Shown one piece after another: positions 30,917 through 64,000 of a DNA stretch of 64,000 nucleotides (within the stretch, counting starts at the first letter, position 1; each line of letters begins with the position of its first letter). A program made the position numbers and the translations under genes. The notes under the pieces are model-generated. The model had not been told where the DNA came from, did no database searches, and worked only from the letters and a program-made list of their open reading frames with translations. Origin of the DNA: Streptomyces sp. NBC_00539. GTDB lineage: Bacteria; Actinomycetota; Actinomycetes; Streptomycetales; Streptomycetaceae. The stretch is taken from NCBI RefSeq assembly GCF_036346105.1, contig NZ_CP107812.1, positions 62,001-126,000 on the forward strand, written 5' to 3'.

Positions 30917-30944
30917 CGTGGCCCCTTCGTCGGCGTAGCGCGGG

Positions 30945-33445: not shown

Positions 33446-33461
33446 CATAAGAGATTTGATG
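33446..33461. promoter_or_regulatory. CATAAGAGATTTGATG, candidate MarR-type site in a divergent promoter
   Basis: 13 of 16 bases match CATAAGACATCTTATG (28875-28890). It lies 29 bp before the FAD monooxygenase ATG and 198 bp from the divergent reductase start. Confidence 0.4.
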
Positions 33462-33489
33462 GTTGTCGTCAATGAGAGGCGGGACGGAT

Positions 33490-35097: not shown

Positions 35098-35112
35098 CAC
35101 CGGAACGCGAAA

Positions 35113-35156
35113 ACGCCATGGGGGGTGCGGCCGGACGGCCGCACCCCCCATGGCGT
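35113..35156. terminator. Bidirectional terminator between FAD hydroxylase and quinone reductase genes
   Basis: Perfect 21-bp arms (35113-35133, 35136-35156) with a two-base centre, between convergent genes. Confidence 0.88.
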
Positions 35157-35160
35157 GTGA

Positions 35161-35988: not shown

Positions 35989-36040
35989 GACAATTCCTCT
36001 CATCGGTGTGACGGTTTCCTTGCCGGCGTTCTCCGGCACG

Positions 36041-37285: not shown

Positions 37286-37629
37286 CCGAGGTCCCCCTCC
37301 TCGATCCTGTGTGGCCGGCGGGTGCAGGGTGGCGCGCACCCCTGACAAGGGGTTGCCCTGCGGTCCATGTTACGACCGGCGTTCCTTCTTGGTCTGGAGT
37401 ACGAGTTTTTACCATAGACCAGTTTTCGCGTGTTGCCCATGGGGGTTTCCGTTCGACGGCCGCACCGTGACGAGCCGCCACCTGGGGGACCGCACCATTC
37501 AAGCCAAAGGTGAGCTGGAAGCTCATCATTGTCCTGCGGTCCACATTTGAACTACGATCCCGCTGCGGAGCTGCCGGGGGGCAGCGCCCTGACGCGCCCT
37601 CAGCGCGTCACCGCTGACAGGGGGTTCTC
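37286..37629. promoter_or_regulatory. Divergent promoter region of PaaK-like and PKS genes
   Basis: 344 bp, A/T-richer than its surroundings at 37383-37435. Structures seen are TGAGCTggaAGCTCA (37511-37525), the imperfect GGTCTGG...CCATAGACC (37391-37420), and an 11-bp direct repeat CCTGCGGTCCA (37357-37367 and 37533-37543). Any of these could bind the TetR protein encoded after the PKS. No consensus autoregulatory element (ARE) was recognised. Confidence 0.5.
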
Positions 37630-48362: not shown

Positions 48363-48376
48363 GCCGCGCGCCCCTC

Positions 48377-48838
48377 TCAGACGAGGGCGACGGTGAAGAG
48401 GGTGAAGGCGAGGACGATGACGGCGACGCGGACGTAGTGGAAGCGGTCCCAGCGGTTGACCTGCTGCTTCCAGTCGGCGGGTACGCCCTCGCGCGCCCAC
48501 GTGGCGACACGGGAGTTGATCGGTACGAGCAGCAGGACCGACATCACCACGCTCACGACGAGGAGCGCGGCACCGGTGACGACGAGGACGGCGCCGGCGC
48601 CGCCCCAGGACACGGCGGCCCACACGGCGCCGAGGACGAGCGAGCCGATGTACCAGAAGGGCATGACGCGGCCGAGGACGCGGGCGCCGTCGCTGCGGGC
48701 GGCGAGGCCGCCGTTGTCGGGGAGCCGGTCGAGGATCGGGTTGACGAACACCGCCACCGCGAACTCCACGCCCACCATCAGTCCCACCACGACGACCGTG
48801 ACGACGGCCAGTACGTCCTGCACGACTACGTCCCGCAT
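48377..48838 (-). CDS. DUF1772-type membrane protein
   Basis: 153 aa from ATG 48838 (an ATG nine codons upstream is open). Four hydrophobic helices: about 8-30, 57-80, 82-105 and 132-150. The last extramembrane segment has W-K-x-Q-V-x-R-W-D-R-F-H-Y-x-R, the signature of DUF1772/anthrone-oxygenase-like small membrane proteins. It diverges from a TetR gene, with two mirror-image TetR-type operators in between. Confidence 0.8.
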   Translation of the reverse strand: MRDVVVQDVLAVVTVVVVGLMVGVEFAVAVFVNPILDRLPDNGGLAARSDGARVLGRVMPFWYIGSLVLGAVWAAVSWGGAGAVLVVTGAALLVVSVVMSVLLLVPINSRVATWAREGVPADWKQQVNRWDRFHYVRVAVIVLAFTLFTVALV

Positions 48839-48867
48839 GACCCCTCCAGGGTGACAGCCCATCATTT

Positions 48868-48931
48868 CTAGCGCTGCTAGCTTTCAATGCAATGCTAGGC
48901 ATGCCGCCGCTCGCTTGTCTAGCAGCGCTAG
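48868..48931. promoter_or_regulatory. Two reverse-complementary 13-bp operators in a divergent promoter
   Basis: CTAGCGCTGCTAG (48868-48880) and CTAGCAGCGCTAG (48919-48931) are exact reverse complements of each other and each nearly palindromic. A half-like AATGCTAGGCAT lies between (48891-48902). They sit 30 bp from the DUF1772 start and 10 bp from the TetR start. Confidence 0.75.
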
Positions 48932-48940
48932 GATGAGGGC

Positions 48941-49519
48941 ATGTCGACACAGGGACGCAAGGAACGGGAGCGGGCCGACCGCCACCGGCTGATCGTCGCC
49001 ACGGCGCGCGAACTCGCCGAGGCCCAGGGCTGGGACGCCGTCACCACGCGCCGGCTCGCGGAGCGGATCGAGTACAGCCAGCCGGTGCTCTACAGCCACT
49101 TCCGCGGCAAGCGGGAGATCGTGGGGGCGGTCGCACTGGAGGGAGCCGCCGAGCTGGCGGGCGCCCTGCGCGCGGCGGTACCGCCCGGGGCGGACGGCCG
49201 GGAGGCGGTGGCCGCGCTGGCGCGCGCCTACACCGACTTCGCGGCGCGCAACCCCGCCGTGTACGACGCGGTCTTCAGCCTGGACAACGGCCTGCCCTAC
49301 GCCGACGAGGCCACGCCCGCCCCGCTGCGCGCGGCCTTCGGGGCCCTGCTGGAGCCGCTCGCCGCACATGTGCGCCCCGACGAGGAACCGGGGCTGTACG
49401 TCGAGACGTTCTGGGCGGCGCTGCACGGGCTGGTCACCCTCACCCGGGCCGGCCGCCTGCCCGCCGACCGGGTCGCCGACCGGCTCACGCTGCTGGTCGA
49501 CCGCTTCGTGCCGCGGTAG
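48941..49519 (+). CDS. TetR-family regulator controlling the DUF1772 gene
   Basis: 192 aa. HTH: DRHRLIVATARELAEAQGWDAVTTRRLAERIEYSQPVLYSHFRGKREIV. C-terminal domain with ETFWAALHGLVTLTRAGRLP, the TetR_C_33/WHG type. The operators in the divergent promoter almost certainly bind it, giving autorepression and control of the membrane protein gene. Confidence 0.88.
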   Translation: MSTQGRKERERADRHRLIVATARELAEAQGWDAVTTRRLAERIEYSQPVLYSHFRGKREIVGAVALEGAAELAGALRAAVPPGADGREAVAALARAYTDFAARNPAVYDAVFSLDNGLPYADEATPAPLRAAFGALLEPLAAHVRPDEEPGLYVETFWAALHGLVTLTRAGRLPADRVADRLTLLVDRFVPR

Positions 49520-49529
49520 GGCACACGCG

Positions 49530-50132
49530 TTACGCGACGGGCGGGGCCCCGGCGGTGTCCGGGCAGTGATGACGGACGATCAGCTCGGCCGTCGCGAGCG
49601 CCATCCGGGCCGGACCGCGCACCCCGAGGACCTCGCCGTTGGCGAGCAGGCCGCCGATGACGAGCATGAGGGCGTCCGCCATGCCGTCGGGGTCCACCGC
49701 ACCCGCCAGCGCCCCCTTGTCGCGCAACCAGTCCCGCAACGCCTGGAGGTGCAACTTCGCCTCGCGGCGGCCCGGGTGCTCGGGGTCGCGGAACTCGCTG
49801 GAGGTGTTGTAGAAGATGCAGCCGTGGAAGTCCGGCTCCCGGACACTGGCGTGGAGGAACTCCATCAGTGCGAGGACCTGGCGGACCGGGTCGCCGCAGT
49901 GGGGCGCCGTGACCCGTTCGGCCTGCTCCCACCACTGGGCGTCGCTCTCGCGCAGCCAGGCCGCGACCAGTTCGTCCTTGCCGGCGAACTCGCGGTAGAG
50001 AAGGCTCTTGCCGACTCCGGTCGCGTCGCTCACCTGCTGCATGCCGACGGCCCTGACCCCCAGCTCGCCGAAGAGTCGGGCCGAGGTCTCCAGGATGCGT
50101 CGCCTCGTGCCTGGTGCCGGCGTGCGCGCCAT
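49530..50132 (-). CDS. TetR-family regulator controlling the SnoaL-like gene
   Basis: 200 aa. HTH: TRRRILETSARLFGELGVRAVGMQQVSDATGVGKSLLYREFAGKDELV. The C-terminal segment has FHGCIFYNTSSEFRDPEHPGRR, seen in the YxaF/LmrA-like group (Cys-x-x-x-N after a GC). It is divergent from the SnoaL-like gene, with a pair of GGACCGATCGGTCC sites between, so it probably represses both. Confidence 0.85.
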   Translation of the reverse strand: MARTPAPGTRRRILETSARLFGELGVRAVGMQQVSDATGVGKSLLYREFAGKDELVAAWLRESDAQWWEQAERVTAPHCGDPVRQVLALMEFLHASVREPDFHGCIFYNTSSEFRDPEHPGRREAKLHLQALRDWLRDKGALAGAVDPDGMADALMLVIGGLLANGEVLGVRGPARMALATAELIVRHHCPDTAGAPPVA

Positions 50133-50647: not shown

Positions 50648-51307
50648 TCAGCGCGGCGGCCAGGGGCGGATGCGGAACGGGGGGACCTCGTGGGAGACGA
50701 AGGCGGTCATGGCCGAGGGGGCGGTGGGGTGGGTGGGGTGCAGGGAGGTGTGGCCGTGCCAGGGGTGGGGGCCGTGGCCGGTGATGCCGCGCAGGGTGAC
50801 CGCGCCGTCCGGGGCGAAGTCCAGGTCGACCTCCTTCGCACCCCGGGCCAGGCCCCGGCCGGTGGCCTTGACCGCCGCTTCGAGCAGGGTCCAGGCGTGG
50901 AAGAAGGCGCGGGGCGTGGCCGTGGCGGGGGCCGCCGGGTAGACGAAGGACAGGACCTCCATGCTGGTGCCGGCCGGGCGGACGAGCTCCACGTCCACCC
51001 CGACCGGTCCGGTCTCGGTCGCGCCCAGCAGCAGCATGCCGTCGGAGCGGGACCAGCTGATGTGGGTGCCGGGCTGGTCGGGCAGGTAGGGCTTGCCCGC
51101 CGGGTCGTAGTGGATGCGCAGGTCGCGCGGGTCGAGTCCCAGGCGGTCGGCCAGCAGCCTGCGGACCGTCAGCCGGGCGCGGAAGAAGCGATGGGCGGCC
51201 CGGGCGTGGACGAACTCGGCTCCGCGCCGCAGCTCCTCTTCGGTCAGGGCGGCTTGTTCGTGGAAAGTGGGGACGACCTGGTCGAGGTCGACCAGCCATG
51301 CGTCCAT
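50648..51307 (-). CDS. Sfp-type 4'-phosphopantetheinyl transferase
   Basis: 219 aa from ATG 51307 (GGAAAGG nine bases upstream; ATG 51316 possible). The PPTase motifs are GVDVELV (Mg-binding Asp) and FFHAWTLLEAAVKATGRGL, where the usual W-x-x-K-E-A has Leu instead of Lys. The first domain has FFRARLTVRRLLADRLGLDPRDL, then YDPAGKPYLP and ISWSRSDG, as in other Sfp enzymes. It transfers the pantetheine arm to carrier proteins. The operon encodes three carrier domains (stand-alone, NRPS and MetRS-fused), so a dedicated PPTase fits. It lies 34 bp after the C45 gene. Confidence 0.85.
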   Translation of the reverse strand: MDAWLVDLDQVVPTFHEQAALTEEELRRGAEFVHARAAHRFFRARLTVRRLLADRLGLDPRDLRIHYDPAGKPYLPDQPGTHISWSRSDGMLLLGATETGPVGVDVELVRPAGTSMEVLSFVYPAAPATATPRAFFHAWTLLEAAVKATGRGLARGAKEVDLDFAPDGAVTLRGITGHGPHPWHGHTSLHPTHPTAPSAMTAFVSHEVPPFRIRPWPPR

Positions 51308-51341
51308 CCTCCACATCCTTTCCGTCAGCGGGTGCTGTGCG

Positions 51342-52355
51342 TCAGAAGGTGAACGTCCGGGTCTCGCTCTGCGAGGGATCGCCCGGGCGCAGGTGCAGTT
51401 CGCCCGCGTGCGGGAAGAGGACCACCGCCGCGACGGTGCGTTCGGCGCGGATGTCCCCGCGGTCGGGGACGCAGACCGGCGGGCGCGCGAGGAGGGCGAA
51501 GTGGTCCTGCGCCGGGGCGGCCGGGGCGATGCGGGCCAGGCCCTCGGTGGCCGCGCGCAGGCGGCGCACCGAGGAGTTGCGGGCGAAGACGTTGAGTTCG
51601 TCCGCCGGGGCGAAGTCGGGGTGCAGGAAGTGGTTGGTGTGCACCGGGTCGCTCCCCTGCCCCACCCGCAGTTCCCCGTCCAGGTGCTCCACGTACACCG
51701 CGCGCTCGCGGTCGCACAGCATCAGCGAGCGCGAGCTGGCCAGCGGCAGGTCCGCGAGGAGTTCGAGGGCTTCCGCGACGCTCCCCGCGTGGTCCAGGAG
51801 GTGGCGGATCGCCAGGTACGGCGGCACCCCCGGGCCCCACGCGCCGCCGAGCACCAGGTTCAGCCCGACGGCGAGGCCCGCGCGGTTGAGCCCGAGGTAG
51901 CCGAGCAGTCCCGCGAAGCTGAGGACCAGTGAGCGCGGGGTCCGCAGGACGGTGATGTGGGTGTCGAGGTTGCCGCTGAGGTCCACCGTCTGGGCCAGGA
52001 CGGGGGCGGGCCCGGTGCGGGCGTACGTGGTGCAGTCCCCGCCGGTCCGGATCTTGGAGTAGCCCATGATCTCGCGGCGCAGCTGGAGCAGCCAGGCTTC
52101 GTCCTCGGTGATGCGGGCTCCTTCCGCGAGCCCGGCCACCTCCTCGGCGAGGTCCGGCAGGGCGGCCGTGACCGCCGCCCGGTAGGCGGCGACCGTCGGC
52201 CGGAGCGCGGCGAGCGAGACGGGGGCGTCCGTGAGGTGGTCCAGGCGGGCGAGGCCGTCGTCGAGGAAGGCCCGCAGCGGCGCGGCGAGGGCCGCGCCGT
52301 GCGTGCGGCCGACTTCGCGCGCGGTGCCCCGGGCGGCGACGAAGGTGACGCTCAT
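51342..52355 (-). CDS. C45-family (isopenicillin-N-acyltransferase-like) enzyme
   Basis: 337 aa, an Ntn-hydrolase. The probable nucleophile is Cys108 in TGGDCTTYA; family members become active by self-cleavage just before this Cys. Here the preceding residue is Asp where Gly is common. Other family features are the long helical start (AREVGRTHGAALAAPLRAFL), LLQLRREIMGYSK, NRAGLAVGLNLV and VHTNHFLHPDF. These enzymes cleave or exchange amide-linked acyl groups. With no thioesterase in the cluster, it could release, de-acylate or transfer an acyl group on the product (inference). Its ATG overlaps the GNAT stop. Confidence 0.82.
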   Translation of the reverse strand: MSVTFVAARGTAREVGRTHGAALAAPLRAFLDDGLARLDHLTDAPVSLAALRPTVAAYRAAVTAALPDLAEEVAGLAEGARITEDEAWLLQLRREIMGYSKIRTGGDCTTYARTGPAPVLAQTVDLSGNLDTHITVLRTPRSLVLSFAGLLGYLGLNRAGLAVGLNLVLGGAWGPGVPPYLAIRHLLDHAGSVAEALELLADLPLASSRSLMLCDRERAVYVEHLDGELRVGQGSDPVHTNHFLHPDFAPADELNVFARNSSVRRLRAATEGLARIAPAAPAQDHFALLARPPVCVPDRGDIRAERTVAAVVLFPHAGELHLRPGDPSQSETRTFTF

Positions 52356-52963
52356 GCGGTGACGGCCGTCTTCGGTCCCCAGGCGAGGGCGGCGCCCACC
52401 TCGGGCCATTCGGCGCGCAGGACGCTGTAGAAGACGGCGTCGCGGCGCCGGCCTCCGGGCATGTAGTTGAAGCTGCGCAGGGTCCCTTCCTCGGTGGCGC
52501 CGATGTTGCGCAGTCCGCGCCTGGCCTGGACGTTGAGGACGTCGGTCTTGAACTCGACGCGCTCGGCCTCCAGGACGTCGAAGGCGTGCGTGAGGAGCAG
52601 CGCCTTCGCCCAGTGGTTGATGCCCTTGCCGCGGAAGTCGCGGCCGAGCCAGGACCAGCCGATCTCCAGGCGCCGGTCGGCTTCGGCCATGTTGCCGAAG
52701 CTCATGCTGCCGGCGATTCGGCCGGTCGCCTTGTCGGTGATGACGTAGATGGCCCGTCGGCCGGCGGCGTGGTCGGCGAGCATGGCGCCGAAGAAGGTCT
52801 CGAAGTCGGCGTCGTTCTCGACGGCGGAGACGAAGTAGCGCCAGATGTCGGGGTCCATCGCGACGGCGCGGACGCCCTCGCGGTCCGCTTCGGTGACCGG
52901 GGTCATCCGGACGCGGTCGTTCTCCAGGATGGCGGCGGCGTCCGCGGCCCAGTTGGTCGTCAT
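52352..52963 (-). CDS. GNAT acyltransferase
   Basis: 203 aa. The GNAT acyl-CoA-binding core is LGRDFRGKGINHWAKALLLTHAFD (motif A), after RLEIGWSW. The N-terminal part (RVRMTPVTEADREGVRAVAMDP) resembles the RimJ/acetyltransferase_3 group. In the triacsin pathway a GNAT next to an acyl-ACP ligase and an ACP N-acylates ACP-bound hydrazinoacetate. The same trio lies here in the same order, so protection of a hydrazine nitrogen is the best guess. It follows the carrier protein gene by 3 bp. Confidence 0.82.
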   Translation of the reverse strand: MTTNWAADAAAILENDRVRMTPVTEADREGVRAVAMDPDIWRYFVSAVENDADFETFFGAMLADHAAGRRAIYVITDKATGRIAGSMSFGNMAEADRRLEIGWSWLGRDFRGKGINHWAKALLLTHAFDVLEAERVEFKTDVLNVQARRGLRNIGATEEGTLRSFNYMPGGRRRDAVFYSVLRAEWPEVGAALAWGPKTAVTA

Positions 52964-52966: not shown

Positions 52967-53245
52967 TCAGGCTCCGGGGGTCGCGTCGTGGTGGCGGGTG
53001 AGGGCGGCGGTGACGTCGCGCAGCGTACGCATGGCGGCGAGGTCGTGTTCGGTGAAGTGGGCGAGGTCGACGCCCGTGTCCTCGCACAGCTCGGTGAGGA
53101 AGAGGACCTTGTTGAGGGAGGTCAGGCCGTAGGCGGCGGCCAGGTCCGCGTCGGGGTCGAGCGACTCGGCGGCGACCTCGGGGATCAGGACGAGGGAGAG
53201 CTGTTCGCGGGCCGCGGACTCGATCGCGGTGAGGGTGTCAGGCAT
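52967..53245 (-). CDS. Stand-alone acyl/peptidyl carrier protein
   Basis: 92 aa, a four-helix carrier. The pantetheine site is Ser43 in AAYGLTSLNKVLFLTEL, where the usual G-x-D-S is G-L-T-S. The C-terminal segment (FTEHDLAAMRTLRDVTAALTRHH) is the typical closing helix. Its ATG lies inside the end of the ligase gene (8-bp overlap), so the pair is translationally coupled and the ligase probably loads this carrier. Confidence 0.82.
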   Translation of the reverse strand: MPDTLTAIESAAREQLSLVLIPEVAAESLDPDADLAAAYGLTSLNKVLFLTELCEDTGVDLAHFTEHDLAAMRTLRDVTAALTRHHDATPGA

Positions 53246-54827
53246 GGATTCCGGCCTCCTGGCTGTGCAGCTGGTGCGCGTAGGCGCTTCGGATCGCGGG
53301 GCGTTTGGGCTTGTACTGGGAAGTCAGCAGGCCGTTGGCGATGCTGAACGGCTCGTCGGCGACGATGACCCGGCTGATCCGCTCGTCGGGGGTGCCGGCG
53401 GCGTTCGCCGCGGCGAGGGCGGCGGTGACGGCGCCGGTGTCGGCGGGCAGGGCGGCCGGGGAGACGACGGCGACGAGGTCGGTCTGGGTGGGGCTGAACA
53501 GCACGCATTCGGCTATCGCCGGATCGGCCTTCATCAGCTCTTCGACGGGCCGCACCACGATCTTCTTGCCGTTGTCGAGGACGATGACGTCGTCGGCGCG
53601 GCCGTGGACGAAGAGGAAACCGTCCTCGTCGAGGTGGCCGATGTCGCCGGTGCGTACGGTGCCGTCCGGCATGAAGACCTTCTCGGAGTCGCCTGGGGCG
53701 GCGTACTCGTAGTGGTCGCCGACGGGGTGGGTGCTGCGGACGCTGATCACCCCGTCCTCCCCGATCAGCACCTGCTTGCCGCGTACCACTCGGCCGACGC
53801 TGCCCTCGCGGTGGGCCCCGGGGTGGTTCTTGGTGACGATGCACGTCTCGTTGAGGCCGTAGCCCTCGAAGAGCGGCAGCCCGGCCTCCTCGGTGAAGAA
53901 GCGGACCAGCGCGGGCGCGGCGGGTGCGGAGCCGGTCCACAGGTAGCGGATGCGGTCGCCGAACAGGGCCTCGGCGACCTGCCGGGTACCGCCCGCGCCG
54001 GGGCGCCTGCGCCGGGCCTCGATCTGGCGGCGGGCCGTCTCGTAGAAGGCGGGGACGCCCATGACCACGGTGGGGCGCACCCGGCGCAGGGTGGCGAAGG
54101 CCGCCTCGTAGGTGGTGAGGGTGACGTCGTGGCCGTGCAGCAGGGCCGAGTAGACCCAGTAGCGCTGCTGGAGCAGGGAGAGGGGGAGGAAGACGAACAG
54201 GTGGTCGTCGGGGGTGTGTCCGAAGATCTCCTGGACGGCTTCGAGGGAGCTCTCGATGCTGCCGGCGGTCGCGCCGAGGCCCTTGGGGACGCCGGTGCTG
54301 CCGGAGGTGAACTTGATGGTGGTGACGTCCTGCTCCGCCCAGGTGACCGGGGGCAGGGGTTCCGCAGGGCCGTCGCCGGGTTCGGTCAGGGCCCAGACGT
54401 CGTCCGTGCGCAGGGTGCCGGCGAGGGCGGTGGGCTGGTCGGTGCACAGGAGCGTGAGGCCGTAGCGGTCCATGAGCTCGCGCGACGGGGTGAACTTGCC
54501 GGGTTCCAGGCCGGCGGTCTGGGCGCCCAGGCGCAGCGCCGCCAGGTCGAGCAGTACCCACTCCAGGCCGTTGGCGGCGAGGATGCCGATCCGCGTGCCC
54601 GGGCCGATGCCGAGGGCGCGCAGGTGGTGGGCGAGGCGGCCGGAGCGCTCGTACAGCTCGCTCAGTGCGAGGGAGCGGGTGCCGTCCAGGCGGGCCGCGT
54701 GGATGCGGCCGCCGGCCGTCGGGGCGGCGGCGACGAGGCGGTTGAGCGGTGAGGGGGCGGCCGGGGCGGTGACGGGGACCGTGGGGGCGGCCGCCGGGGC
54801 GGTGACGGGGACCGTCGGGGCGGTCAT
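53238..54827 (-). CDS. Acyl-AMP ligase / acyl-ACP synthetase
   Basis: 529 aa, ANL superfamily. Core A3 is TIKFTSGSTGVPKGLGAT, A5 is LFEGYGLNETCIVTKN, A7/A8 is VRTGDIGHLDEDGFLFVHGRADDVIVL, and the A10 lysine is in NGLLTSQYKPKRPAI. The NGLLT ending is like that of long-chain acyl-CoA ligases rather than NRPS A domains. An N-terminal repeat TAPTVPVTAPAA occurs twice. By position (carrier protein next, GNAT after) it likely activates a carboxylic acid, possibly hydrazinoacetate, and loads the carrier. The ATG overlaps the NRPS stop codon. Confidence 0.85.
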   Translation of the reverse strand: MTAPTVPVTAPAAAPTVPVTAPAAPSPLNRLVAAAPTAGGRIHAARLDGTRSLALSELYERSGRLAHHLRALGIGPGTRIGILAANGLEWVLLDLAALRLGAQTAGLEPGKFTPSRELMDRYGLTLLCTDQPTALAGTLRTDDVWALTEPGDGPAEPLPPVTWAEQDVTTIKFTSGSTGVPKGLGATAGSIESSLEAVQEIFGHTPDDHLFVFLPLSLLQQRYWVYSALLHGHDVTLTTYEAAFATLRRVRPTVVMGVPAFYETARRQIEARRRRPGAGGTRQVAEALFGDRIRYLWTGSAPAAPALVRFFTEEAGLPLFEGYGLNETCIVTKNHPGAHREGSVGRVVRGKQVLIGEDGVISVRSTHPVGDHYEYAAPGDSEKVFMPDGTVRTGDIGHLDEDGFLFVHGRADDVIVLDNGKKIVVRPVEELMKADPAIAECVLFSPTQTDLVAVVSPAALPADTGAVTAALAAANAAGTPDERISRVIVADEPFSIANGLLTSQYKPKRPAIRSAYAHQLHSQEAGIHA

Positions 54828-57800
54828 CGGGTTTCCCTTTCGGCGAGTACGGCGGCCATGGCGCGGACGGTGTCGATCTCGGCGAACTGGTCGAGGGTGA
54901 GGGTGACCCCGAAGCGTTTGCGGGCCGCGGTGAGGATGCGGGCGGCGGCGATGGAGTCACCGCCGAGGGAGGCGAGGGTGTCCAGGGCGCCGATGTCGGC
55001 GCGGCGCAGGACGGTGGACCAGATGTCGGCCACCAGCTTCTCGGTGGCGCCGGTGGGTGCCGTGTCGCCCGGTGCCGCGGCCGGTGCGGCGCAGGCGGCC
55101 GGCTCCTCGGCGCCGAGCGCCGCCAGCTTCGTACGGTCGACCTTGGCGTTCTTGGTCAGGGGCAGGCTCTCGTGCCAGACCAGCGCCGCGGGCAGCATGT
55201 AGTCGGGCAGGTCGGCGCGCAGCGCCCGGCGGATCTCGGCGAGTTCGGGGCGGTGGTCGCCGTCGGCGACGAGGTGGGCGACGAGGGAGCCGCCGCGGGC
55301 GGCGACGACGGCCTGGGCGACGGCGTCCAGGGCGGCGAGGCGGGTCTCGACCTCGCCGGCTTCGATCCGGTAGCCGTTGACCTTGATCTGGAAGTCGGAG
55401 CGGCCGAGGATCTGGATGTCCCCGTCGGGCAGGTACCGGCCGAGGTCGCCGGTGCGGTAGAGGCGTTCGCCGCGCACCGGGTCCTCGTAGAACCGCTCGG
55501 CGGTGCGTTCCTCGTCGCCCCAGTAGCCGCGGGCCAGGCCGGTGCCGGCGGCGACGATCTCGCCGGTGACCCAGTCGGGTGCGTCGAGGCCGTCGCGGTC
55601 CAGCACGTAGGCGCGGTTGTTGGCGTTGGGGCGGCCGTACGGGATGGACTCGGTGCCGTCCTCGTCCTCGCGGACGGGGTGCAGGATGTTCCAGATGGTG
55701 GTCTCGGTGGGGCCGCCGAGGGAGACGACCTCCAGGCCGGGCTTGAGGGTGCGCAGCGCGGCGGGCAGGGCGGGCGGGAGCCGGTCGCCGCTCATCATGA
55801 CCAGGCGCAGGGCGGGCGGTACGTCGCCGTCGGCGGCGGCCTGGTCGTGCAGGAGGCCGACGATGGCGGGGACGGAGTTCCACACGCTGATCCGGTGCGC
55901 GCGGCACAGGTCGAGCCAGTGGGCGGGGTCGACGGCCTTGTCCCGGTCGGGCATGACCAGGGCGGCGCCGGCCGACAGGGCGCCGAAGACGTCCCAGACG
56001 GAGAGGTCGAAGTTGAAGGCGCTGATGGCGAAGAAGCGGTCCTGGGGGCCGATCCGGAAGCGGGTGTGGCAGTCGGCGACGACGTTGGCCACGTTGCGGT
56101 GGGTCACCATGACGCCCTTGGGCGCGCCGGTGGTGCCGGAGGTGTAGAGGACGTACGCGAGGTCGTCGGGGTGCGAGCCGGGCAGCCGCGCGGGCACCTC
56201 GGCGGGCCCGTCCGGCAGGGCATCGGGGGCGGTCAGGTCGAGTACGGCGAACCCGCCCGCGGCGCAGGCCTCGGCGGGGCCGCCGTCGGTCAGCACGCAC
56301 CGCACCCGGCCGTCCCGCAGCATGTACTCCTGGCGGGCGGTGGGCAGGGCGGCGTCGACGGGCAGGTAGGCGGCCCCGGCCAGCACGGTGGCGAGGATGC
56401 CGATGACCTGCTCGGGGCCGCGCCGCATGACGAGGGCGACGAGTTCGCCCCTGCCCACGCCGTGCCCGCGGAGCCAGGCCGCGGCGGCGGCGGCGCGGCG
56501 CAGCAGTTCGCCGTAGCCGACCTCCCGCTCGGTGGTGAGGATCGCGGGGGCGTCGGGGGTGCGGGCGGCCCGGGCCGCGATGGCGTCGCCGAGCATCTCC
56601 TCGGGCAGCGGGGCGGCGGTGTCGTTGGCGGCGCGGCGGCGTTCGCGCTGCGCGGGCGGCAGCAGGTCGAAGCTGTGGCGCTGCCAGGCCGCCTCGTCGG
56701 CGAGTTCGCCGAGCAGCGTCCCGTACCCGTGCGCGAGGTCGTCCAGCAGACCTTCGGGGAAGAGTTCGTCGAGTCCGTCGAGCTGGATGACGGCGGCCCC
56801 GTGCTGCTCCATCGCGAAGGCGTTCAGCCATACCTGGGGCGTCTGGCTGACCGAGTGGACCTCGGGGCCGAACAGTTCCAGCGCCGAGCCGTCGACCTCG
56901 CTGCTGACGTGTCCGATGGCGCTGTTGAAGGTGAACGGCATCCGCGCGCCGGCCACTCCGCCGCGGCGGCGGGCCAGTTCCTGCATGACCTCGATGCCGG
57001 AGAAGTGGCGGTGGTCGATGTCGGCGTGCAGCCGGCTCTGCAGGGCCCGCGCCCGCTCCACGAAGGGCAGGGAGCGGTCGACCTCCGCCTCGACCAGGAG
57101 GGTGTCGGAGAACTGGCCGATGGCTTCGAAGACCCGGGGGTGGACGGGCGGCCGGTTGGCGATGGTGGTGGTGAGGGTGAACCGCTCCCCCGCGCCCCAG
57201 GTGGCGAGGGCTTCCGCGTACGCGGCGAGCAGCAGCGCGGAGGGCGTCAGTCCGGCGGCGGCGGCCCGCTCCTTGACGGCCGTCCACCGCTCGCGTTCGA
57301 CCCGCACCCGGCGCTGGGTGAAGCGGGAGCGGGTCAGCGCGGCCGGGCTGGTGCGCAGCGGCAGGTCGGGGTGGGGGGCGAGGTCGTCCACCCGGCGCAT
57401 CCAGTACTCGCGGGAGCGGCGGGCGGGGGCCTTGCCGCGGGCGGCTTCGAGGGCGGCGAGGTAGTCGTCGTAGGCGAACTCGACGGGCGCGCCGGGGCCT
57501 TCGGCGGGGCTGCTCTGGTAGGCGCGCCACCAGGCGCGGAAGAACAGGAACATGCTGATCCCGTCCATGACGAGCCCGTCGTGGCCGACGTGGAGGACCA
57601 TCTTGTCGTCGGCGAGGAGGGTGACGTCGACGCTGAGCAGCGGGGCCCGGTCGGCGGGCAGCACCTGGTGGGAGCGCTGCTCGCGCAGTTCGGCGCGGAG
57701 CACCTCCTGCTGCTGCGGGGTGCGGTCGCGCAGGTCGAGGCGGCCGATGGGCAGGTGGGCGTGGTGTCCGTACTCGGTGACCTGGCGGTCGTCGGCGAGG

Positions 57801-58156
57801 AAGCGGGAGCGCAGGGCGCTGTGCGCGCCGATGACGGTGTCGAGGGCGCTCTGCAGCCGGTCGATGTCCCAGACGCCTTCGATCTCGTGGAAGACGTGGC
57901 TGGCCACGTCGCCGATCTCGAAGACGCCGCTGCGGCCGATGTAGTAGCTGCGCTGGAGCGGGGTGAGGGGGAAGCCGGGGCCGTGCTGGGCCTCCCGGGC
58001 GAGGTGGGCGACGAGTTCGGCTTTGGCGGCCTTGACGCGGGTGATGAAGTCGGCGTCCATCCGGTCGCGGTTGCCCTGGAGGCGCAGGTCGCCGTCGGCG
58101 AGGGCGACGGACAGGCCGCGTTCGGCTATCTCGCGCAGGATCAGGCGGTGGTTCAT
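54824..58156 (-). CDS. NRPS module: docking - Cy - A (probably Cys) - PCP
   Basis: 1110 aa. Residues 1-52 resemble a TubC-type N-terminal docking domain (LILREIAERGLSVALADGDLRL, ... KAAKAELVAHL). At 60-490 is a condensation domain with the heterocyclisation signature D-x-x-x-x-D-x-x-S (D193, D198, S201 in HDGLVMDGIS) and TFNSAIGH. The A domain (about 505-1000) has YVLYTSGTTGAPKGVMVTHRN and YRTGDLGRYLPDG. Pocket residues read from FNFDLSVWDVFG, WNSVPAI, MMSGD and LGGPTETTIWN give about DLWN-S-IWK, close to the published cysteine code. PCP Ser1068 is in LGGDSIAAARI. There is no thioesterase. The module should make a thiazoline from Cys and an upstream acyl group. Confidence 0.88.
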   Translation of the reverse strand: MNHRLILREIAERGLSVALADGDLRLQGNRDRMDADFITRVKAAKAELVAHLAREAQHGPGFPLTPLQRSYYIGRSGVFEIGDVASHVFHEIEGVWDIDRLQSALDTVIGAHSALRSRFLADDRQVTEYGHHAHLPIGRLDLRDRTPQQQEVLRAELREQRSHQVLPADRAPLLSVDVTLLADDKMVLHVGHDGLVMDGISMFLFFRAWWRAYQSSPAEGPGAPVEFAYDDYLAALEAARGKAPARRSREYWMRRVDDLAPHPDLPLRTSPAALTRSRFTQRRVRVERERWTAVKERAAAAGLTPSALLLAAYAEALATWGAGERFTLTTTIANRPPVHPRVFEAIGQFSDTLLVEAEVDRSLPFVERARALQSRLHADIDHRHFSGIEVMQELARRRGGVAGARMPFTFNSAIGHVSSEVDGSALELFGPEVHSVSQTPQVWLNAFAMEQHGAAVIQLDGLDELFPEGLLDDLAHGYGTLLGELADEAAWQRHSFDLLPPAQRERRRAANDTAAPLPEEMLGDAIAARAARTPDAPAILTTEREVGYGELLRRAAAAAAWLRGHGVGRGELVALVMRRGPEQVIGILATVLAGAAYLPVDAALPTARQEYMLRDGRVRCVLTDGGPAEACAAGGFAVLDLTAPDALPDGPAEVPARLPGSHPDDLAYVLYTSGTTGAPKGVMVTHRNVANVVADCHTRFRIGPQDRFFAISAFNFDLSVWDVFGALSAGAALVMPDRDKAVDPAHWLDLCRAHRISVWNSVPAIVGLLHDQAAADGDVPPALRLVMMSGDRLPPALPAALRTLKPGLEVVSLGGPTETTIWNILHPVREDEDGTESIPYGRPNANNRAYVLDRDGLDAPDWVTGEIVAAGTGLARGYWGDEERTAERFYEDPVRGERLYRTGDLGRYLPDGDIQILGRSDFQIKVNGYRIEAGEVETRLAALDAVAQAVVAARGGSLVAHLVADGDHRPELAEIRRALRADLPDYMLPAALVWHESLPLTKNAKVDRTKLAALGAEEPAACAAPAAAPGDTAPTGATEKLVADIWSTVLRRADIGALDTLASLGGDSIAAARILTAARKRFGVTLTLDQFAEIDTVRAMAAVLAERETR

Positions 58157-60417
58157 CGGGGCTCTCCCTCTGTGAGGGCGGCGACGGCGGTGTCGTCGGC
58201 GCGCTCGGCGATGACGGCGGCGAGCTCGTCGAGGGTGCCGCCGTGCAGCAGTTCGTCCATGGACAGGTCCACGTCGAGGGCGTCGAGGATCTGGTACTGG
58301 ACGGTGACGGCCTGGAGGGAGCCGGCGGCCAGCTGGGTGAGGGTGCGGCCGGCGATCTGCTCGTCGTCCTCCAGGCGCAGGGCGCTGCGGACGATGCCGG
58401 TCAGCCACGGGGTGAGGGCGCTCGGGGCGCGGGGTGCGCCGGCGGGCCGGAAGAACACGGCGTCGGCGAGGGTGACGGCGGTGCCGGGCGCGAGGAGTTC
58501 GACGGTACGGGGCCACGTGCGCGGGGCTTCGAGGCCGAGGGCGGCCGCCAGCTTGTCGGCGAAGCGGGGCATGACGGGGGCGGCGGCGTGCGCGAGGAGG
58601 CGGGCGGCGGCCAGTTCGAGGGCGATGGCGGTGCGGTTCTCGTCCGCCCAGGCCCCGGTGTCGGCGAGGAGGCCTTCGCCGCGGGCGAAGCGGACCGTGT
58701 CGCGGACGATGCCGTCGAGTTCGGCGGCGGCCTGGTTGAGGGAGAACGCGTCGTTGTCCAGCGCCCCGGTGACGGCGGTGAGGCGGGCGCCGAGCCGGGC
58801 GAGGAACGCGGAGTGCTCGGGCGTCCAGTTCCCGGCGTCGGGGGCGTGGCCGCCGTGGTGCTTGGCGACGCGGGCGCCGAGGTCGTTCAGCCACTGCTGC
58901 CAGGTGCCGATGAGGGTGTCGTCGAGGGTGGCCTCGTAGGCGGCGCGCCGGAAGTCGGTGCGCAGGCCTTCGGGGCGGGTGGAGGCGAGGAAGTAGCGGA
59001 CGGAGTCGACGGTGTCGGGGCTGAGGATCTCCTTGCCCCAGATCGCGTGCCGGCGGCTGGTGGAGAACTTGCTCCCCTCCAGCAGGTAGAACTCGTTGAC
59101 GTGGTAGTCGATGTCCGGGGTCCAGCCGGGGAAGGCCAGCTTGTAGAGCACGGGGTAGAGGACCGCGTGGTAGAAGCTGTTGTCGTAGCCGAAGAAGTGG
59201 ACGATCTTCCAGTCCCGGGCGGGGTCGGCGGCCCTCCAGTCGCGGCCGAGGCGGGAGCCCAGTGACTGGATGCCGTGCAGGAAGCCGTAGCTCATCTCCG
59301 GCCACACCCAGATGACCTGGCCTTCGGTGGCGTTCTCCTGCGGTTCGACGCCCCAGGTGGAGGGGTGGGTGACGGGGACGTCCAGGGCGGGGCGCCGGAA
59401 GAGCCGGTCGGCGAGTTCGCGCAGCCGGGCGGGGACCCGGCCGAGCCGGTGGTGTGCGCGTACGTCGTCGGCGAAGGCGTGCAGCGGGAGGGTCCAGCGG
59501 GCGGCGGGGGCGCGGCGGGGCGCCGTGGTGGAGGCGGCGGAGACCGGGTCGGTGAGGTCGGCGACGGTGTTGGGTTCGCCGCACTCCTCGCAGATGTTGC
59601 CGGAGGTGGTGGCGCCGCAGCCGGGGCAGCCGCCCTTGACGTCGACTTCGTAGAGGTACTGGCCGCTTTCGGCGTCGTACAGGGCCTCGTGGGCGGTGAC
59701 GGCGATCCGGCCGGAGTCCACGACGCGGCTGAAGAAGTCCTGGAGGCCCTCGCGGTAGGCGGGGTCCTGGTCGGTGACCGTGTACTGGTCGAGCGGGATG
59801 TCCATCAGCCGCAGGGTCTCGGCGATCTCGGCGCTGTAGTGCGCGGCGGTCTCGGCGGGGGTGCGGCCGTCCTTGCGGGCGGCGCCGACGACGTAGCTCT
59901 GGTAGTCGTCGCTGCCGGTGAGGTGGTAGGCCTCGGCGCCGGTCATCCGCTGGAAGCGGGTGAAGGCGTCGGCGCCGAGGTAGGGGCCCGAGAGGTGGCC
60001 CAGGTGCAGGTCGCCGTTGGGGGTGGGCGGGGTGGAGAAGACGAAGACGGGCCGCTCGCCGAAGCCCTTGCGGGCGGGGTTCGCGGCGGAGGCCAGGGCC
60101 CGGTCGCCGTCGCGCCAGTACTGGGTGAAGAAGACGAGGTCGCCTTCCCCGGTGTTGGCCAGGACGTGCGTTTCGAACGGTTCGAAGAGGACGACAGTGC
60201 CCGGTTCGGCGGGGTGGCGCTCGCCGCTGTCGAGGACGAACTCGCCGCTGCCGCGGACGATGACGAACAGCTCGGTCTCGTCGTGCTGGTGGCGGTCGGC
60301 GGCCCGGCCCGGCGCCACCCGGCCCCAGCCCGCGCCGGTGCCGAGGCCCTCGACGCCGCTCATGTCGATGCCGAAGGCCTGTTCCAGGACGTCGGCGTCA
60401 TAGCTGGCGATGATCAT
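58153..60417 (-). CDS. Hydrazine synthetase-like fusion: cupin - MetRS-like - carrier protein
   Basis: 754 aa. Residues 1-105 are a cupin (metal-binding H43, H45 and E49 in DRHQHDETE; H84 in FETH). Residues 120-650 are a methionyl-tRNA-synthetase-like class I domain: HIGH motif HLGH (138-141, in NGDLHLGHLSG), a zinc knuckle C264-x2-C267 and C276-x2-C279, and a KMSKS-like KFSTS (450-454). D412 and H417 sit in GYDNSFYH where E. coli MetRS has GKDIVYFH. The usual VWLDAPIGY pocket is changed to VWPEMSYGF. Residues 665-740 are a carrier domain with Ser700 (LAAGSLQAV). Cupin-MetRS proteins (Spb40, Tri28) join N6-hydroxylysine to an amino acid through an N-N bond. I know of no C-terminal carrier in those, so that is the unusual part. 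Start and stop overlap both neighbours. Confidence 0.88.
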   Translation of the reverse strand: MIIASYDADVLEQAFGIDMSGVEGLGTGAGWGRVAPGRAADRHQHDETELFVIVRGSGEFVLDSGERHPAEPGTVVLFEPFETHVLANTGEGDLVFFTQYWRDGDRALASAANPARKGFGERPVFVFSTPPTPNGDLHLGHLSGPYLGADAFTRFQRMTGAEAYHLTGSDDYQSYVVGAARKDGRTPAETAAHYSAEIAETLRLMDIPLDQYTVTDQDPAYREGLQDFFSRVVDSGRIAVTAHEALYDAESGQYLYEVDVKGGCPGCGATTSGNICEECGEPNTVADLTDPVSAASTTAPRRAPAARWTLPLHAFADDVRAHHRLGRVPARLRELADRLFRRPALDVPVTHPSTWGVEPQENATEGQVIWVWPEMSYGFLHGIQSLGSRLGRDWRAADPARDWKIVHFFGYDNSFYHAVLYPVLYKLAFPGWTPDIDYHVNEFYLLEGSKFSTSRRHAIWGKEILSPDTVDSVRYFLASTRPEGLRTDFRRAAYEATLDDTLIGTWQQWLNDLGARVAKHHGGHAPDAGNWTPEHSAFLARLGARLTAVTGALDNDAFSLNQAAAELDGIVRDTVRFARGEGLLADTGAWADENRTAIALELAAARLLAHAAAPVMPRFADKLAAALGLEAPRTWPRTVELLAPGTAVTLADAVFFRPAGAPRAPSALTPWLTGIVRSALRLEDDEQIAGRTLTQLAAGSLQAVTVQYQILDALDVDLSMDELLHGGTLDELAAVIAERADDTAVAALTEGEPR

Positions 60418-61502
60418 GTCGTGGCCTTCCGGGGTGAGGCGGGCAGGGAGAGCAGGTCGGCGGTGCGGGCGGCGAGCGCGGGGGCGAGGCGGTACCCGGA
60501 GCCGCCGGCGGCGCCCGCGAAGACGGTCCGGCCGTCTTCGGTGAGCGGGGTGACCAGCGGGTGGCCCTGCGGGCCGTACGCGTCGCAGAAGACGCGGCCC
60601 GAGTGGCAGCGGTCGACGAGCTGCGGGGCGTAGCGGGTGAGCAGGGCGCGGGCCTCGTCGAGGTGGCCGGCGGTGGGGGCCGGGTCGATGTGGGCGGGGT
60701 CGACGTCCCATTCGCGGCAGGTGTAGCTGAACAGCCAGTGGCCGCGGTGGTGCAGGGGCAGCAGGAACGCGTCCTCGTCCTGGAAGACGATCGCCCCGTC
60801 GCCGGTCCGCGGGGGGACGTCGATGTGCAGGGCGACGATCTTCTTGACGCGGGCGCCGAGCGGGGCGACGAGCTCGCGCCAGGCGGGGTCGGCGAGCCAG
60901 GGCCCGGGGGCCAGGACGACGCGGCCGGCGGTGAGCGCCGCGCCGCCGGTCAGGGTGAGGCGGACGTGGTCCGGGCCGGCGTCGAGGGCGGTGACGGCGA
61001 CGCCTTCGCGCAAGAGGAGGCGGGGACGCAGCTCGGCGCCGAGCTGCTGGGTGAGGGTGTGGACGTCCGCGTACTGGCAGCCGTCGCCCTGCCAGGCGCC
61101 GTATCCGGCGGGCAGCTGCGGGACCGAGGACGGCAGTTCGGTGGTCCGGCGCAGCTTCGCCTCGGGGAGGTAGACCTCGTGCAGCCGCTCCTCGGCGGCC
61201 TCGGGGGCGAGGACGGTCATGGGCAGCGGGTGGATGGGCAGGTCGGGGCGCAGGGTGTGGAGGTCGGCGTAGAAGCGTTCGCTCTCGGCGGCCAGGGTGC
61301 GCACGGTCTCGGTGGCGCCGCGCGGGAAGTGCAGTCCGGCGGAGCGGCGGCTGGCGCCGGAGCCGATCATGTCGCGGTCGAGGACGGTGACGGTGGCGGC
61401 CGGGTCGCGGGCGAGGATCTCGCGGGCGATGAGGACGCCGAGTATCCCCGCGCCGACGACGGCGACGTCGCTGCGGGCCCCGGCGGGGGCGGCGGTGTCC
61501 AT
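60414..61502 (-). CDS. FAD-dependent D-amino-acid-oxidase-like enzyme of the hydrazine pathway
   Basis: 362 aa, DAAO/glycine oxidase fold. The FAD motif is VAVVGAGILGVLIAREIL (residues 13-30), with SAGLHFPRG and the C-terminal FAGAAGGSGYRLAPALAARTADLL. In s56-p1 and triacsin biosynthesis an enzyme of this type, next to the lysine N-hydroxylase and the cupin-MetRS, cuts the lysine-amino acid N-N adduct oxidatively to release hydrazinoacetate. The gene order here (hydroxylase, oxidase, cupin-MetRS) with 1- and 4-bp overlaps supports the same role. Confidence 0.85.
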   Translation of the reverse strand: MDTAAPAGARSDVAVVGAGILGVLIAREILARDPAATVTVLDRDMIGSGASRRSAGLHFPRGATETVRTLAAESERFYADLHTLRPDLPIHPLPMTVLAPEAAEERLHEVYLPEAKLRRTTELPSSVPQLPAGYGAWQGDGCQYADVHTLTQQLGAELRPRLLLREGVAVTALDAGPDHVRLTLTGGAALTAGRVVLAPGPWLADPAWRELVAPLGARVKKIVALHIDVPPRTGDGAIVFQDEDAFLLPLHHRGHWLFSYTCREWDVDPAHIDPAPTAGHLDEARALLTRYAPQLVDRCHSGRVFCDAYGPQGHPLVTPLTEDGRTVFAGAAGGSGYRLAPALAARTADLLSLPASPRKATT

Positions 61503-62830
61503 CAGGCGCTCCACCGTTCCTGCGGTGCGGGCTTGGTGGACCACTCGATGAAGGAGGCGAGCTGCTCGTCGCCGCGTACGCCGCTGATCCGGTCGGCGAT
61601 GCGCCGGCTGCGCCAGGCGTTGAGGCTGAGGTTGGGGTCGGCGAGGCCGCGCTGGCCGCGCACGCCGTTCTGGACGAAGATCCGCCGGTCCTCGGGGCCG
61701 TCCCAGCGGACGGCGTAGTCCTCGTCGACGCGCAGTTCGTCGCCCTCGCGCTCCAGGCGGTCGGCCAGGGGGGAGAGGAAGTCCATGGCGGCGGGCCGGT
61801 AGCCGGTGGCCCAGACGACGACGTCGGCGTCGAACTTCTCCACCGATTCGGGTTCGCCGGTGTGGCGGGCGCTGACTTCCCAGCCGGCTACGGGGGCGGG
61901 GCTGACGTCGAACACCTCGCGGCCCGGGTGCAGGGCGACCAGGTCCTCGTTGCCCTCCACGAAGCGGTGGACGTAGATGCCCTGGTAGATCTCGCGCAGG
62001 GTGGATTCCGAGATGCCGTCGCTGGTCAGGATGTTGCGGGCGTTCAGCGACTGGCGGCGCTCGCGGGGCAGTGCGTAGAAGTAGTCGGCGTGGCTGGGCA
62101 TGTAGTAGTCGTTGGTGAACGGCGAGTCGTCGATCGGGAAGTAGTTCTGCCGGCGGGAGATCCAGGAGACCCGGCGGGGCAGTTGCCGGCCGGAGCGGGA
62201 GATCAGGTCGAGGAAGGCCTCGGCGCCGGACTGGCCCCCGCCGATGACGACGACGCGTTTGCCGCCGAGGTCGTGGGAGGCGTTCAGGTAGTCGGCGACG
62301 TGGAACTGGGTGGGACCGAGCCGGCCGGCGCCCTGCGGCGGGACCCAGGGGCGGCTGCCGACGCCGACCACGACGTTGTCGGCGGTGACGGTGCGGCGGT
62401 CGGTGTGGACGGTGTAGGTGCCGCGCCGGTCGTCGAAGCCGACTTCCCGGACGTCCTCGCCGAAGGTGATGTTCTCGTTGCGGCGGCTGGCCCACGCCAG
62501 GTAGTTGCGGAATTCCAGCCGGGGCACGTCGTCGAACTGGGCGTTGAGGAAGTGGTAGACCCGGCCCTTCTCGTGGAGGTAGGCGAGGAAGGAGAAGGGG
62601 CTGGCGGGGTCGGCGAGGCTCACCAGGTCCTTGAACTGGGAGACCTGGAGGGTGGTTCCGGGTATCTGCTGGCCGTCGTGCCAGCTGAAGGATTCCTTGC
62701 GGTCGAGGAAGAGATTGGGCATGTCCGGCCTGCAGTGCAGCAGTGACGCCAGACTGAGGTTGGCCGGGCCCACGCCCACTCCCACGCAGCGGAAGTGCGT
62801 GGCACCGGGCGGGAAGCTCTCGTGCGCCAT
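61502..62830 (-). CDS. L-lysine (or ornithine) N-monooxygenase
   Basis: 442 aa, SidA/IucD/PvdA family. FAD motif CVGVGVGPANLSLASLL (15-31), NADPH motif VVVIGGGQSGAEAFLDL (near 195), substrate and flavin-shield segments LQVSQFKDLVSLADPASPFSFL and FTNDYYMPSHADYFY, and the C-terminal ATGYRP. It hydroxylates the side-chain amine. In a siderophore cluster this would feed hydroxamates, but beside a cupin-MetRS it should make N6-hydroxylysine for N-N bond formation. Its stop shares one base with the next start. Confidence 0.9.
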   Translation of the reverse strand: MAHESFPPGATHFRCVGVGVGPANLSLASLLHCRPDMPNLFLDRKESFSWHDGQQIPGTTLQVSQFKDLVSLADPASPFSFLAYLHEKGRVYHFLNAQFDDVPRLEFRNYLAWASRRNENITFGEDVREVGFDDRRGTYTVHTDRRTVTADNVVVGVGSRPWVPPQGAGRLGPTQFHVADYLNASHDLGGKRVVVIGGGQSGAEAFLDLISRSGRQLPRRVSWISRRQNYFPIDDSPFTNDYYMPSHADYFYALPRERRQSLNARNILTSDGISESTLREIYQGIYVHRFVEGNEDLVALHPGREVFDVSPAPVAGWEVSARHTGEPESVEKFDADVVVWATGYRPAAMDFLSPLADRLEREGDELRVDEDYAVRWDGPEDRRIFVQNGVRGQRGLADPNLSLNAWRSRRIADRISGVRGDEQLASFIEWSTKPAPQERWSA

Positions 62831-62923: not shown

Positions 62924-64000
62924 TCAGGCGGTCCGGGTCCGGCGGTCGTGTACGGCGATGAGGCCGCAGGCGGTGGCGAGCAGGGAGCAGGCGCCGACCA
63001 GTGGCCACACGAGGGAGCCGAACTGGAGGAACAGCCAGGTGCCGGCCATCGGCCCGAGCGCGGAGCCCAGGCCGAACATGAACTGGAAGCTGCCGATGTA
63101 GCGCGAGCGCAGGGGCTCGGGTCCCGCGCTCGCCGGGTAGGCGAAGACGGCGGGGCCGCCGAGGATCTCGCCCAGCGACCAGACGAGCGTGCCGATGACG
63201 ACGGCGGCCGGGCCGATGGGCAGTCCGTAGCAGGCGACTCCGGCGCCGACGAGGGCGAAGCCGAGACCGACGGTGATCTTGAGCGGCCAGCGCTGGGAGA
63301 CCTTGGTGACCAGCAGCTCGAAGGCGATGACGATGAGGCCGTTGAGCGCGACGGCGAAGGTGTACCAGAAGAGCGCCATGCCGGCGTCCTTCATGTACAG
63401 CGGGAGGGTGGAGAGGTACTGGGTGTAGACGGCGGCGTGGCAGAAGGCGGCGGTCAGGTAGAGCAGGTAGCGGCGGTCGCGCAGGACGGCCGCGTAGCCG
63501 CCGCGGGCGCCGGTGGGGACGGGAGCGGCCGCGGGGTGCCGGGCGGCCTTGGCGGGGAGGGTGGCACGGGCGACGAGGGCGTAGGCGAGCGCGATGACGG
63601 CCTCGCCCCAGAAGAGGAGGGTGTACGAGTGCCCGCCCGCGTTGTAGAGCGCGTAGCCCAGCAGCGGGGCGGCGGTCGCGCCGACGTTGAGGCCGAAGCG
63701 GTACATCGCGAAGATCATGATCTGCCGGTCGCCGTCGGTCTGGTCGGCCAGCAAGGTGGCGGAGGCCGGCCGGAACAGCTGGGCGCCCATGCTGACCAGG
63801 GCGATCGCGCCGAGCAGCAGGGTGAAGTCGGGCAGGTAGAGCAGGGCGGCGGTCAGCACGGCCGTGCTGCTCATGGACACGACGGTGGCGTGACGGATGC
63901 CGAGCCGGTCGGCGAGGGTGCCGCCGACGAGGGAGCCGGCGACGGCGCCCGCCCCGTAGACGCCGAGGGCGATGACGGTGCGGGCCTCGGAGTGGCCGGC
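62924..64000 (-). CDS. MFS exporter, N-terminus cut by the window edge
   Basis: At least 359 codons; the frame is open to base 64000, so the start lies outside. At the visible N-terminal side is helix 2 followed by motif A (GGTLADRLGIRHATVV), then about ten more hydrophobic helices. GAQLFRPASATLLADQT and NVGATAAPLLGYAL are typical of the MdtH/YdhP-like drug efflux branch. It is upstream of the N-hydroxylase gene on the same strand and is the likely exporter, or self-resistance pump, for the hydrazine-derived product. Confidence 0.82.
   Translation of the reverse strand, partial: AGHSEARTVIALGVYGAGAVAGSLVGGTLADRLGIRHATVVSMSSTAVLTAALLYLPDFTLLLGAIALVSMGAQLFRPASATLLADQTDGDRQIMIFAMYRFGLNVGATAAPLLGYALYNAGGHSYTLLFWGEAVIALAYALVARATLPAKAARHPAAAPVPTGARGGYAAVLRDRRYLLYLTAAFCHAAVYTQYLSTLPLYMKDAGMALFWYTFAVALNGLIVIAFELLVTKVSQRWPLKITVGLGFALVGAGVACYGLPIGPAAVVIGTLVWSLGEILGGPAVFAYPASAGPEPLRSRYIGSFQFMFGLGSALGPMAGTWLFLQFGSLVWPLVGACSLLATACGLIAVHDRRTRTA

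Follow-up and report, generated by a model that had tools for sequence, protein, structure and literature searches.

The 64,000-nt stretch of Streptomyces sp. NBC_00539 analyzed here (the window; positions 62,001 to 126,000 of contig NZ_CP107812.1, assembly GCF_036346105.1) encodes a 754-aa protein that joins a cupin, a methionyl-tRNA-synthetase (MetRS)-like domain and a carrier protein domain. Sequence comparison makes it very probable that the gene belongs to an azaserine (azs) cluster and that its product is AzsN, with two separate jobs: N–N bond formation and, on its carrier, a later ester-forming step. AzsN is listed as “Cupin/class I tRNA ligase/carrier protein” in the azaserine pathway (PMC10445470, Chem Sci 2023), where about 50 such clusters were counted; the azaserine cluster in S. 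albus is treated in PMC11334723. An earlier note on this DNA, made from the sequence alone, knew of no described enzyme with the three-part layout. That claim falls: the review PMC11705231 gives the extra carrier domain for AzsN (S. fragilis) and for AzaE/Aza12 (Glycomyces harbinensis), and a third, carrier domain was likewise reported in 2026 for NngM of the N-nitroglycine pathway (PMC13274452). The fusion, its Cy-A partner and the function of the carrier are already known, the layout itself from two pathways (azaserine and N-nitroglycine).

The open reading frame and its Pfam domains confirmed the layout, the position and the strand that had been proposed for the gene:

58153..60417, minus strand (running from 60417 to 58153): azsN orthologue, cupin/MetRS-like/carrier protein, 754 aa (Pfam; reciprocal best match in S. 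fragilis)
60127..60321, minus strand: cupin domain, residues 33–97 (Pfam Cupin_2, E 9.6e-12)
58894..60030, minus strand: MetRS-like catalytic domain, residues 130–508 (Pfam tRNA-synt_1g, E 6.1e-62)
58450..58842, minus strand: anticodon-binding-like domain of the MetRS part, residues 526–656 (Pfam Anticodon_3, E 3.8e-7)
58210..58407, minus strand: carrier protein domain, residues 671–736 (Pfam PP-binding, E 3.9e-5; Ser700 codon at 58318–58320)

All four domains exceeded the Pfam gathering score, PP-binding with 24.3 bits against 20.8. The HLGH (138–141), KFSTS (450–454) and zinc-knuckle (C264/C267/C276/C279) motifs named in the earlier note were all present and invariant across 45 aligned sequences, the window's included. 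In the same alignment, the cupin residues H45, E49 and H84 were invariant and H43 was conserved in at least 90% of sequences; by their spacing, they match the metal-site residues H50/H52/E56/H90 of PyrN (PMC8664883). The cupin thus has the H-H-E-H site reported for PyrN, and the zinc itself is predicted. Residue 700, correctly named as the carrier serine, is the putative phosphopantetheine site and is Ser in 40/40 aligned carriers (the window's, 38 fused tails and one separate carrier). When 24 carriers were built into a profile, it matched the solved carriers of Pks13 (E 2.1e-8, the best match) and of the peptide synthetase PaxA (4.4e-6), and the structure entry 5msp (1.2e-3), which we take to be a carboxylic acid reductase. 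The Pfam match, the conserved serine and these profile matches rule out a non-carrier C-terminus, and the reading of residues 665–740 as a carrier stands. A housekeeping MetRS identity was also ruled out: the protein is only 33% and 26% identical to the two MetRS-like proteins of the same genome, and a tree split it from them with a support of 99 (SH-like approximate likelihood ratio test, SH-aLRT), both of the latter lying on very long branches.

Domain order, neighboring genes and their order, and an ester-type Cy domain with both characteristic Asn residues are common to the window and to the S. fragilis azs cluster. The window protein is 71–73% identical to S. fragilis AzsN, its reciprocal best match (71% over 764 aligned positions). 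Its gene overlaps both neighbors by ATGA, upstream the DAO-type oxidase gene and downstream a gene for a Condensation(Cy)-A-PCP protein, the next module expected by the earlier note. The neighboring genes in the window are as follows:

50648..51316, minus strand: azsU orthologue, phosphopantetheinyl transferase (42% over 225 aligned positions; Pfam)
51342..52355, minus strand: azsT orthologue, AAT/C45-type amidohydrolase, start codon assumed (reciprocal match; Pfam)
52352..52963, minus strand: azsS orthologue, GNAT acyltransferase; AzsS succinylates hydrazinoacetic acid (reciprocal match; Pfam)
52967..53245, minus strand: azsQ orthologue, free-standing carrier protein, 92 aa (reciprocal match; Pfam)
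53238..54827, minus strand: azsP orthologue, AMP-dependent ligase (reciprocal match; Pfam)
54824..58156, minus strand: azsO orthologue, Cy-A-PCP synthetase, 1110 aa (domain scan; S. fragilis comparison)
60414..61502, minus strand: azsM orthologue, DAO-type FAD oxidoreductase (reciprocal match; Pfam)
61502..62830, minus strand: azsL orthologue, lysine N6-hydroxylase (reciprocal match; Pfam)
62924..64000, minus strand: azsK orthologue, MFS transporter, cut by the window end (reciprocal match; Pfam)

Farther along the contig, the next 13 kb hold orthologues of azsJ to azsB and of azsR. For the comparison, stop-to-stop frames of the window and the next 20 kb were matched reciprocally against 40 kb around the S. 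fragilis cluster, which was itself taken unannotated; azs names were assigned by published gene order plus Pfam. Of the 21 genes in the PMC10445470 table, 20 had a collinear reciprocal best match, 10 of them in the window and 10 in the next 13 kb, running from the azsU-like gene (50648) to the azsR-like LuxR gene (to extended coordinate 76831). Pfam agreed with the azs name for 19 of these 20 genes, azsI being matched by sequence only. Beyond the window, nine genes gave the families LuxR, thioesterase, isocitrate-lyase-type, KAS III, haem-oxygenase-like iron enzyme, acyl-CoA dehydrogenase, P450, saccharopine dehydrogenase-type (AlaDh_PNT_N) and ATP-grasp. The minimal azs set (azsL, M, N, S, T, F, Q, O, B, G and E; PMC10445470) was present in full (11/11) and in the S. 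fragilis order. The azsO orthologue carries D193/D198 (DxxxxD) in its Cy domain, with N411 and N445 replacing the heterocyclization Thr and Asp; PMC10445470 reports both Asn residues to be necessary for ester formation. The core strings of its A domain (FNFDLSVWDVF, VWNSVPAIV, VMMSGDR and VVSLGGPTETTIWN) are identical to those of the serine-loading AzsO of S. fragilis.

Some observations weigh against this assignment. The gene azsA (hypothetical protein) was not identified among the matches in the window and the next 20 kb; it is absent from some azs clusters (PMC10445470). Antisense frames also gave some reciprocal matches, the strand being chosen by the better GC pattern and Pfam match. The azsU orthologue is only 42% identical to its S. 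fragilis counterpart, and within the azsN orthologue the carrier reaches only 35–41% identity against 78% for the MetRS part. The window's cluster differs from that of S. fragilis in these two divergent sequences, and also in its location on a separate 437-kb contig. Among the other known systems, Glycomyces harbinensis shares the three-domain layout and gave a similar but less complete match set in the 35 kb compared, although it retains Asp at the second Cy site, where the window has Asn. The N–N bond-forming enzymes Spb40 (s56-p1), Tri28 (triacsin) and PyrN (pyrazomycin) share the cupin and MetRS-like domains (PMC11705231, PMC8664883); Spb40 and Tri28 lack the carrier domain of the window protein (PMC11705231), and PyrN is described as a two-domain protein.

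For the window proteins, we infer every step of the pathway from orthology. The MetRS-like domain would use ATP to activate an amino acid (most likely glycine) and attach it as an ester to N6-hydroxylysine supplied by AzsL, and the zinc cupin would rearrange this ester to form the N–N bond; the ester and cupin steps have been demonstrated for PyrN (PMC8664883). AzsM would then cleave the N–N product to free hydrazinoacetic acid, a compound whose formation has been demonstrated for Spb38-40 and NngKLM (per PMC11705231 and PMC13274452). The domain reading of the earlier note and its assignment of the protein as a hydrazine synthetase are both supported. Downstream, AzsS would succinylate hydrazinoacetic acid, AzsP would load AzsQ, the free-standing carrier, with the succinylated acid, and AzsT and AzsF would trim and oxidize the AzsQ-bound group to a 2-hydrazineylideneacetyl thioester. 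How AzsT and AzsF share this step is disputed in print: the later-step assays of PMC10445470 used S. niger AzsT and needed both proteins, yet another group found AzsF alone enough. The KAS-III enzyme AzsD would move the 2-hydrazineylideneacetyl group to phosphopantetheine on Ser700, the Cy domain of AzsO would pass it from the AzsN carrier to the side-chain oxygen of serine, and AzsB would free the ester. An oxidase would then form the diazo group; according to PMC13061610, the oxidoreductase behind this step of azaserine biosynthesis is still to be identified.

Published in vitro work demonstrates the later steps for azs proteins, among them the corresponding hand-over: AzsD moves 2-hydrazineylideneacetyl from AzsQ to the AzsN carrier, and AzsO, most likely by its Cy domain, then esterifies serine (PMC10445470). 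The proposed hand-over by the carrier therefore survives in one part, as the carrier does feed the Cy domain. It fails in the other, since the published cargo is 2-hydrazineylideneacetyl received from AzsQ via AzsD and not the substrate or product of the synthetase. With the early chemistry ending in free hydrazinoacetic acid, early and late steps would share a polypeptide rather than a covalent intermediate.

We surveyed relatives of the protein by a pattern-led scan of GTDB genomes, which gave 109 relatives; the best 80 (96% to 50% identity) were kept. Since one of the six search peptides falls in the carrier, the survey cannot serve as a fair census of how many loci bear one; the loci reach 10 kb to each side, and the absence of far genes is therefore not meaningful. 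Four loci were set aside, three running off a contig end (L065, L068, L074) and one metagenomic locus being frameshifted (L079). The remaining 76 loci are intact: a carrier tail and an immediately following Cy-A gene occur together in 38 and are both missing in 37, and L060 alone has Cy-A without a fused tail. Only the Cy and A parts, out of 19 cluster components, track the carrier perfectly (38/38 vs 0/37), as expected if the tail serves the Cy domain and not the N–N chemistry. PMC10445470 already placed all carrier-bearing AzsN homologues directly upstream of an azsO homologue; the survey adds the converse, that there is no Cy-A partner without a carrier, and the split forms described below. 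The series thus follows a clean rule, a fused carrier occurring only with a Cy-A partner. The replacement of Thr by Asn was found in 41/42 Cy domains and that of Asp by Asn in 33/42; the one Cy domain that retains Thr belongs to L071. Among the 393 sampled Streptomyces genomes, 23 gave a match with E no higher than 1e-150; in 13 of these, the window's own included, a match reached the carrier (query end at least 744).

On the model derived from the earlier note, the hydrazine product of the synthetase, or its substrate, remains tethered to the carrier as a thioester and goes directly to the Cy domain; free hydrazinoacetic acid would then not occur. The joining of carrier and synthetase in one chain, with Cy-A-PCP adjoining, fits this model, but we regard it as very unlikely. 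The cluster keeps the full free-acid route (orthologues of azsM, azsS, azsP, azsQ, azsT and azsF), and omission of AzsN, or its substitution by AzsQ, abolished only the ester product (PMC10445470). Carrier-less synthetases also keep the same hydroxylase (37/37) and oxidase (36/37) genes, which argues that the N–N step does not need a carrier. Still less credible is a functionless relic: the tail is indeed the least conserved of the three domains, but Ser700 is Ser in every aligned carrier, the tail is absent in 37/37 intact loci that lack a Cy-A partner and present in 38 that have one, and, for the published AzsN, ester formation depends on the carrier (PMC10445470). There is a slim chance that the AzsN carrier also serves as a platform for the hydrazone oxidase, with the diazo group arising there either ahead of the transfer to serine or in its course, and the authors of PMC10445470 did not rule out oxidation on carriers. 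An azsG-like P450 lies near carrier-bearing synthetases in 28/38 loci, against 2/37 carrier-less ones; the contrast is less clear for the azsE-like iron enzyme (16/38 vs 5/37). Both associations may only mark the whole azs cluster.

The same machinery could also make another end product, such as N-nitroglycine, thrazarine or another relative, which we consider unlikely. NngM of S. noursei shares the three-domain layout, its pathway includes an NRPS (nonribosomal peptide synthetase) condensing onto serine, and S. noursei makes both azaserine and N-nitroglycine (PMC13274452); thrazarine is suggested in PMC10445470 as the possible product of one such cluster. Against this stand a gene order equal to that of the S. 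fragilis azs cluster and the lack of a second P450. The surveyed locus of S. noursei A-2-1 (L031, possibly the PMC13274452 locus), whose synthetase is 60% identical to that of the window, has a further P450 (18891–20432, stop-to-stop frame; Pfam p450), which we infer to be NngS, the second P450 required for the nitramine. At E 1e-8, nothing matched this P450 in the window with its next 20 kb or in the 40-kb stretch of S. fragilis. A weak match within the cluster (residues 1–88 against window 51329–51592, E 6.9e-6) comes from the part of the query frame that overlaps the azsT-like gene next to it in L031, and the best-scoring match across the whole genome has 34% identity. An N-nitroglycine cluster was judged less likely on these grounds, leaving azaserine as the preferred product.

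The synthetase tree needs 11 state changes for carrier presence, and the approximately unbiased (AU) test rejects a single clade of carrier-bearing synthetases (39 rows vs 38, quick tree; p 2.2e-5); both results are set against a single origin. The synthetase and NRPS trees (42 rows) share 29/39 splits with a Spearman correlation of 0.95, a value as high being reached in 0/200 permutations. They conflict in 2/28 and 2/27 supported splits, one over the place of the alphaproteobacterial group. Repeated loss of carrier and NRPS together seems likelier than repeated gain. An independent-pairs test went 5/5 in the expected direction and was not significant (p 0.0625).

Two loci carry the carrier as a gene of its own. 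In Bradyrhizobium sp. U87765 (L060), the synthetase stops at 12011–12013 and a separate carrier gene follows at 12066–12413, its stop overlapping the Cy-A start; this carrier matches a profile of the 38 fused tails with E 1.8e-19. A further search at E up to 1e-80 covered 385 genomes of one class (one match, the centre of the search) and 391 of one family (two matches, the centre and genome G767), and thus gained one further split locus. In this locus (L121), the separate carrier (12414–12728 plus stop) lies between a carrier-less synthetase and Cy-A, and its start overlaps the synthetase stop; the split may be an assembly error. About 44 bases of L121, comprising a stop, a purine-rich site and a start, are absent in the fused relatives L063 (Caulobacter) and L093. 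The NRPS tree places L121 outside L063 and L093 (99) and L060 outside these three (100); the synthetase tree leaves the order of L121 and L093 open (14). Judging from these sequences, the L063/L093 fusion possibly arose by deletion within Alphaproteobacteria and would then possibly be a second fusion event; alternatively, the split loci may derive by fission from a fused ancestor, with no more steps on these trees.

Both split loci fit the guess made in PMC10445470 that an ancestor encoded the carrier in a gene apart from the synthetase. The main-text parts of that paper covered here do not mention split carriers, and the literature search was not aimed at this point; the split forms are a small, possibly new point. 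Together with the 80-locus enzyme series, the two natural split loci allow an in vitro question: does the fusion itself bring a benefit?

Further loci of the survey differ in their neighborhoods. Three carrier-bearing loci (L055, L062, L071) and the contig-end locus L065 have a neighboring hydroxylase 40–42% and an oxidase 31–34% identical to those of the window; their synthetases perhaps use another hydroxylamine partner. L093, on plasmid pSmeSM11b (typed as conjugative) of the legume symbiont Sinorhizobium meliloti SM11, combines an azs-like operon with further NRPS, alpha/beta hydrolase and MbtH genes, perhaps for a larger hydrazone or diazo peptide. On the linear plasmid pSA3239 of S. lavendulae (L126), the azs-like cluster adjoins serS, VlmB-like, flavin reductase and acyl-CoA dehydrogenase genes, presumably the set expected for a valanimycin-type azoxy pathway. 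In several Streptomyces (pSA3239, NBC_01276, NBC_00158), large plasmids carry AzsN-like genes with a neighboring NRPS, and the window's own contig (C2, 436969 bases), which stands beside a 7.07-Mb contig, is perhaps a similar large plasmid-type replicon.

The large contig of the same genome carries a second, carrier-less synthetase (73% identity; G000:C1:367106-369094; L082, L092) adjoined by its own hydroxylase, oxidase and azsI-like genes; no Cy-A, AzsP, AzsS or AzsT counterpart was found near it at E 1e-10 in the 20 kb compared. At the azsU-side border of the cluster, window positions 47385–50132 encode two TetR regulators, an anthrone-oxygenase-like protein and an ArsR-type regulator. Farther away, an unrelated-looking group at 27569–41592 includes a KS-AT-DH-ACP type I polyketide synthase (37630–41592), an aromatic FAD hydroxylase (33463–35097), an aldo/keto reductase (32175–33500) and an MFS transporter (27569–28816).

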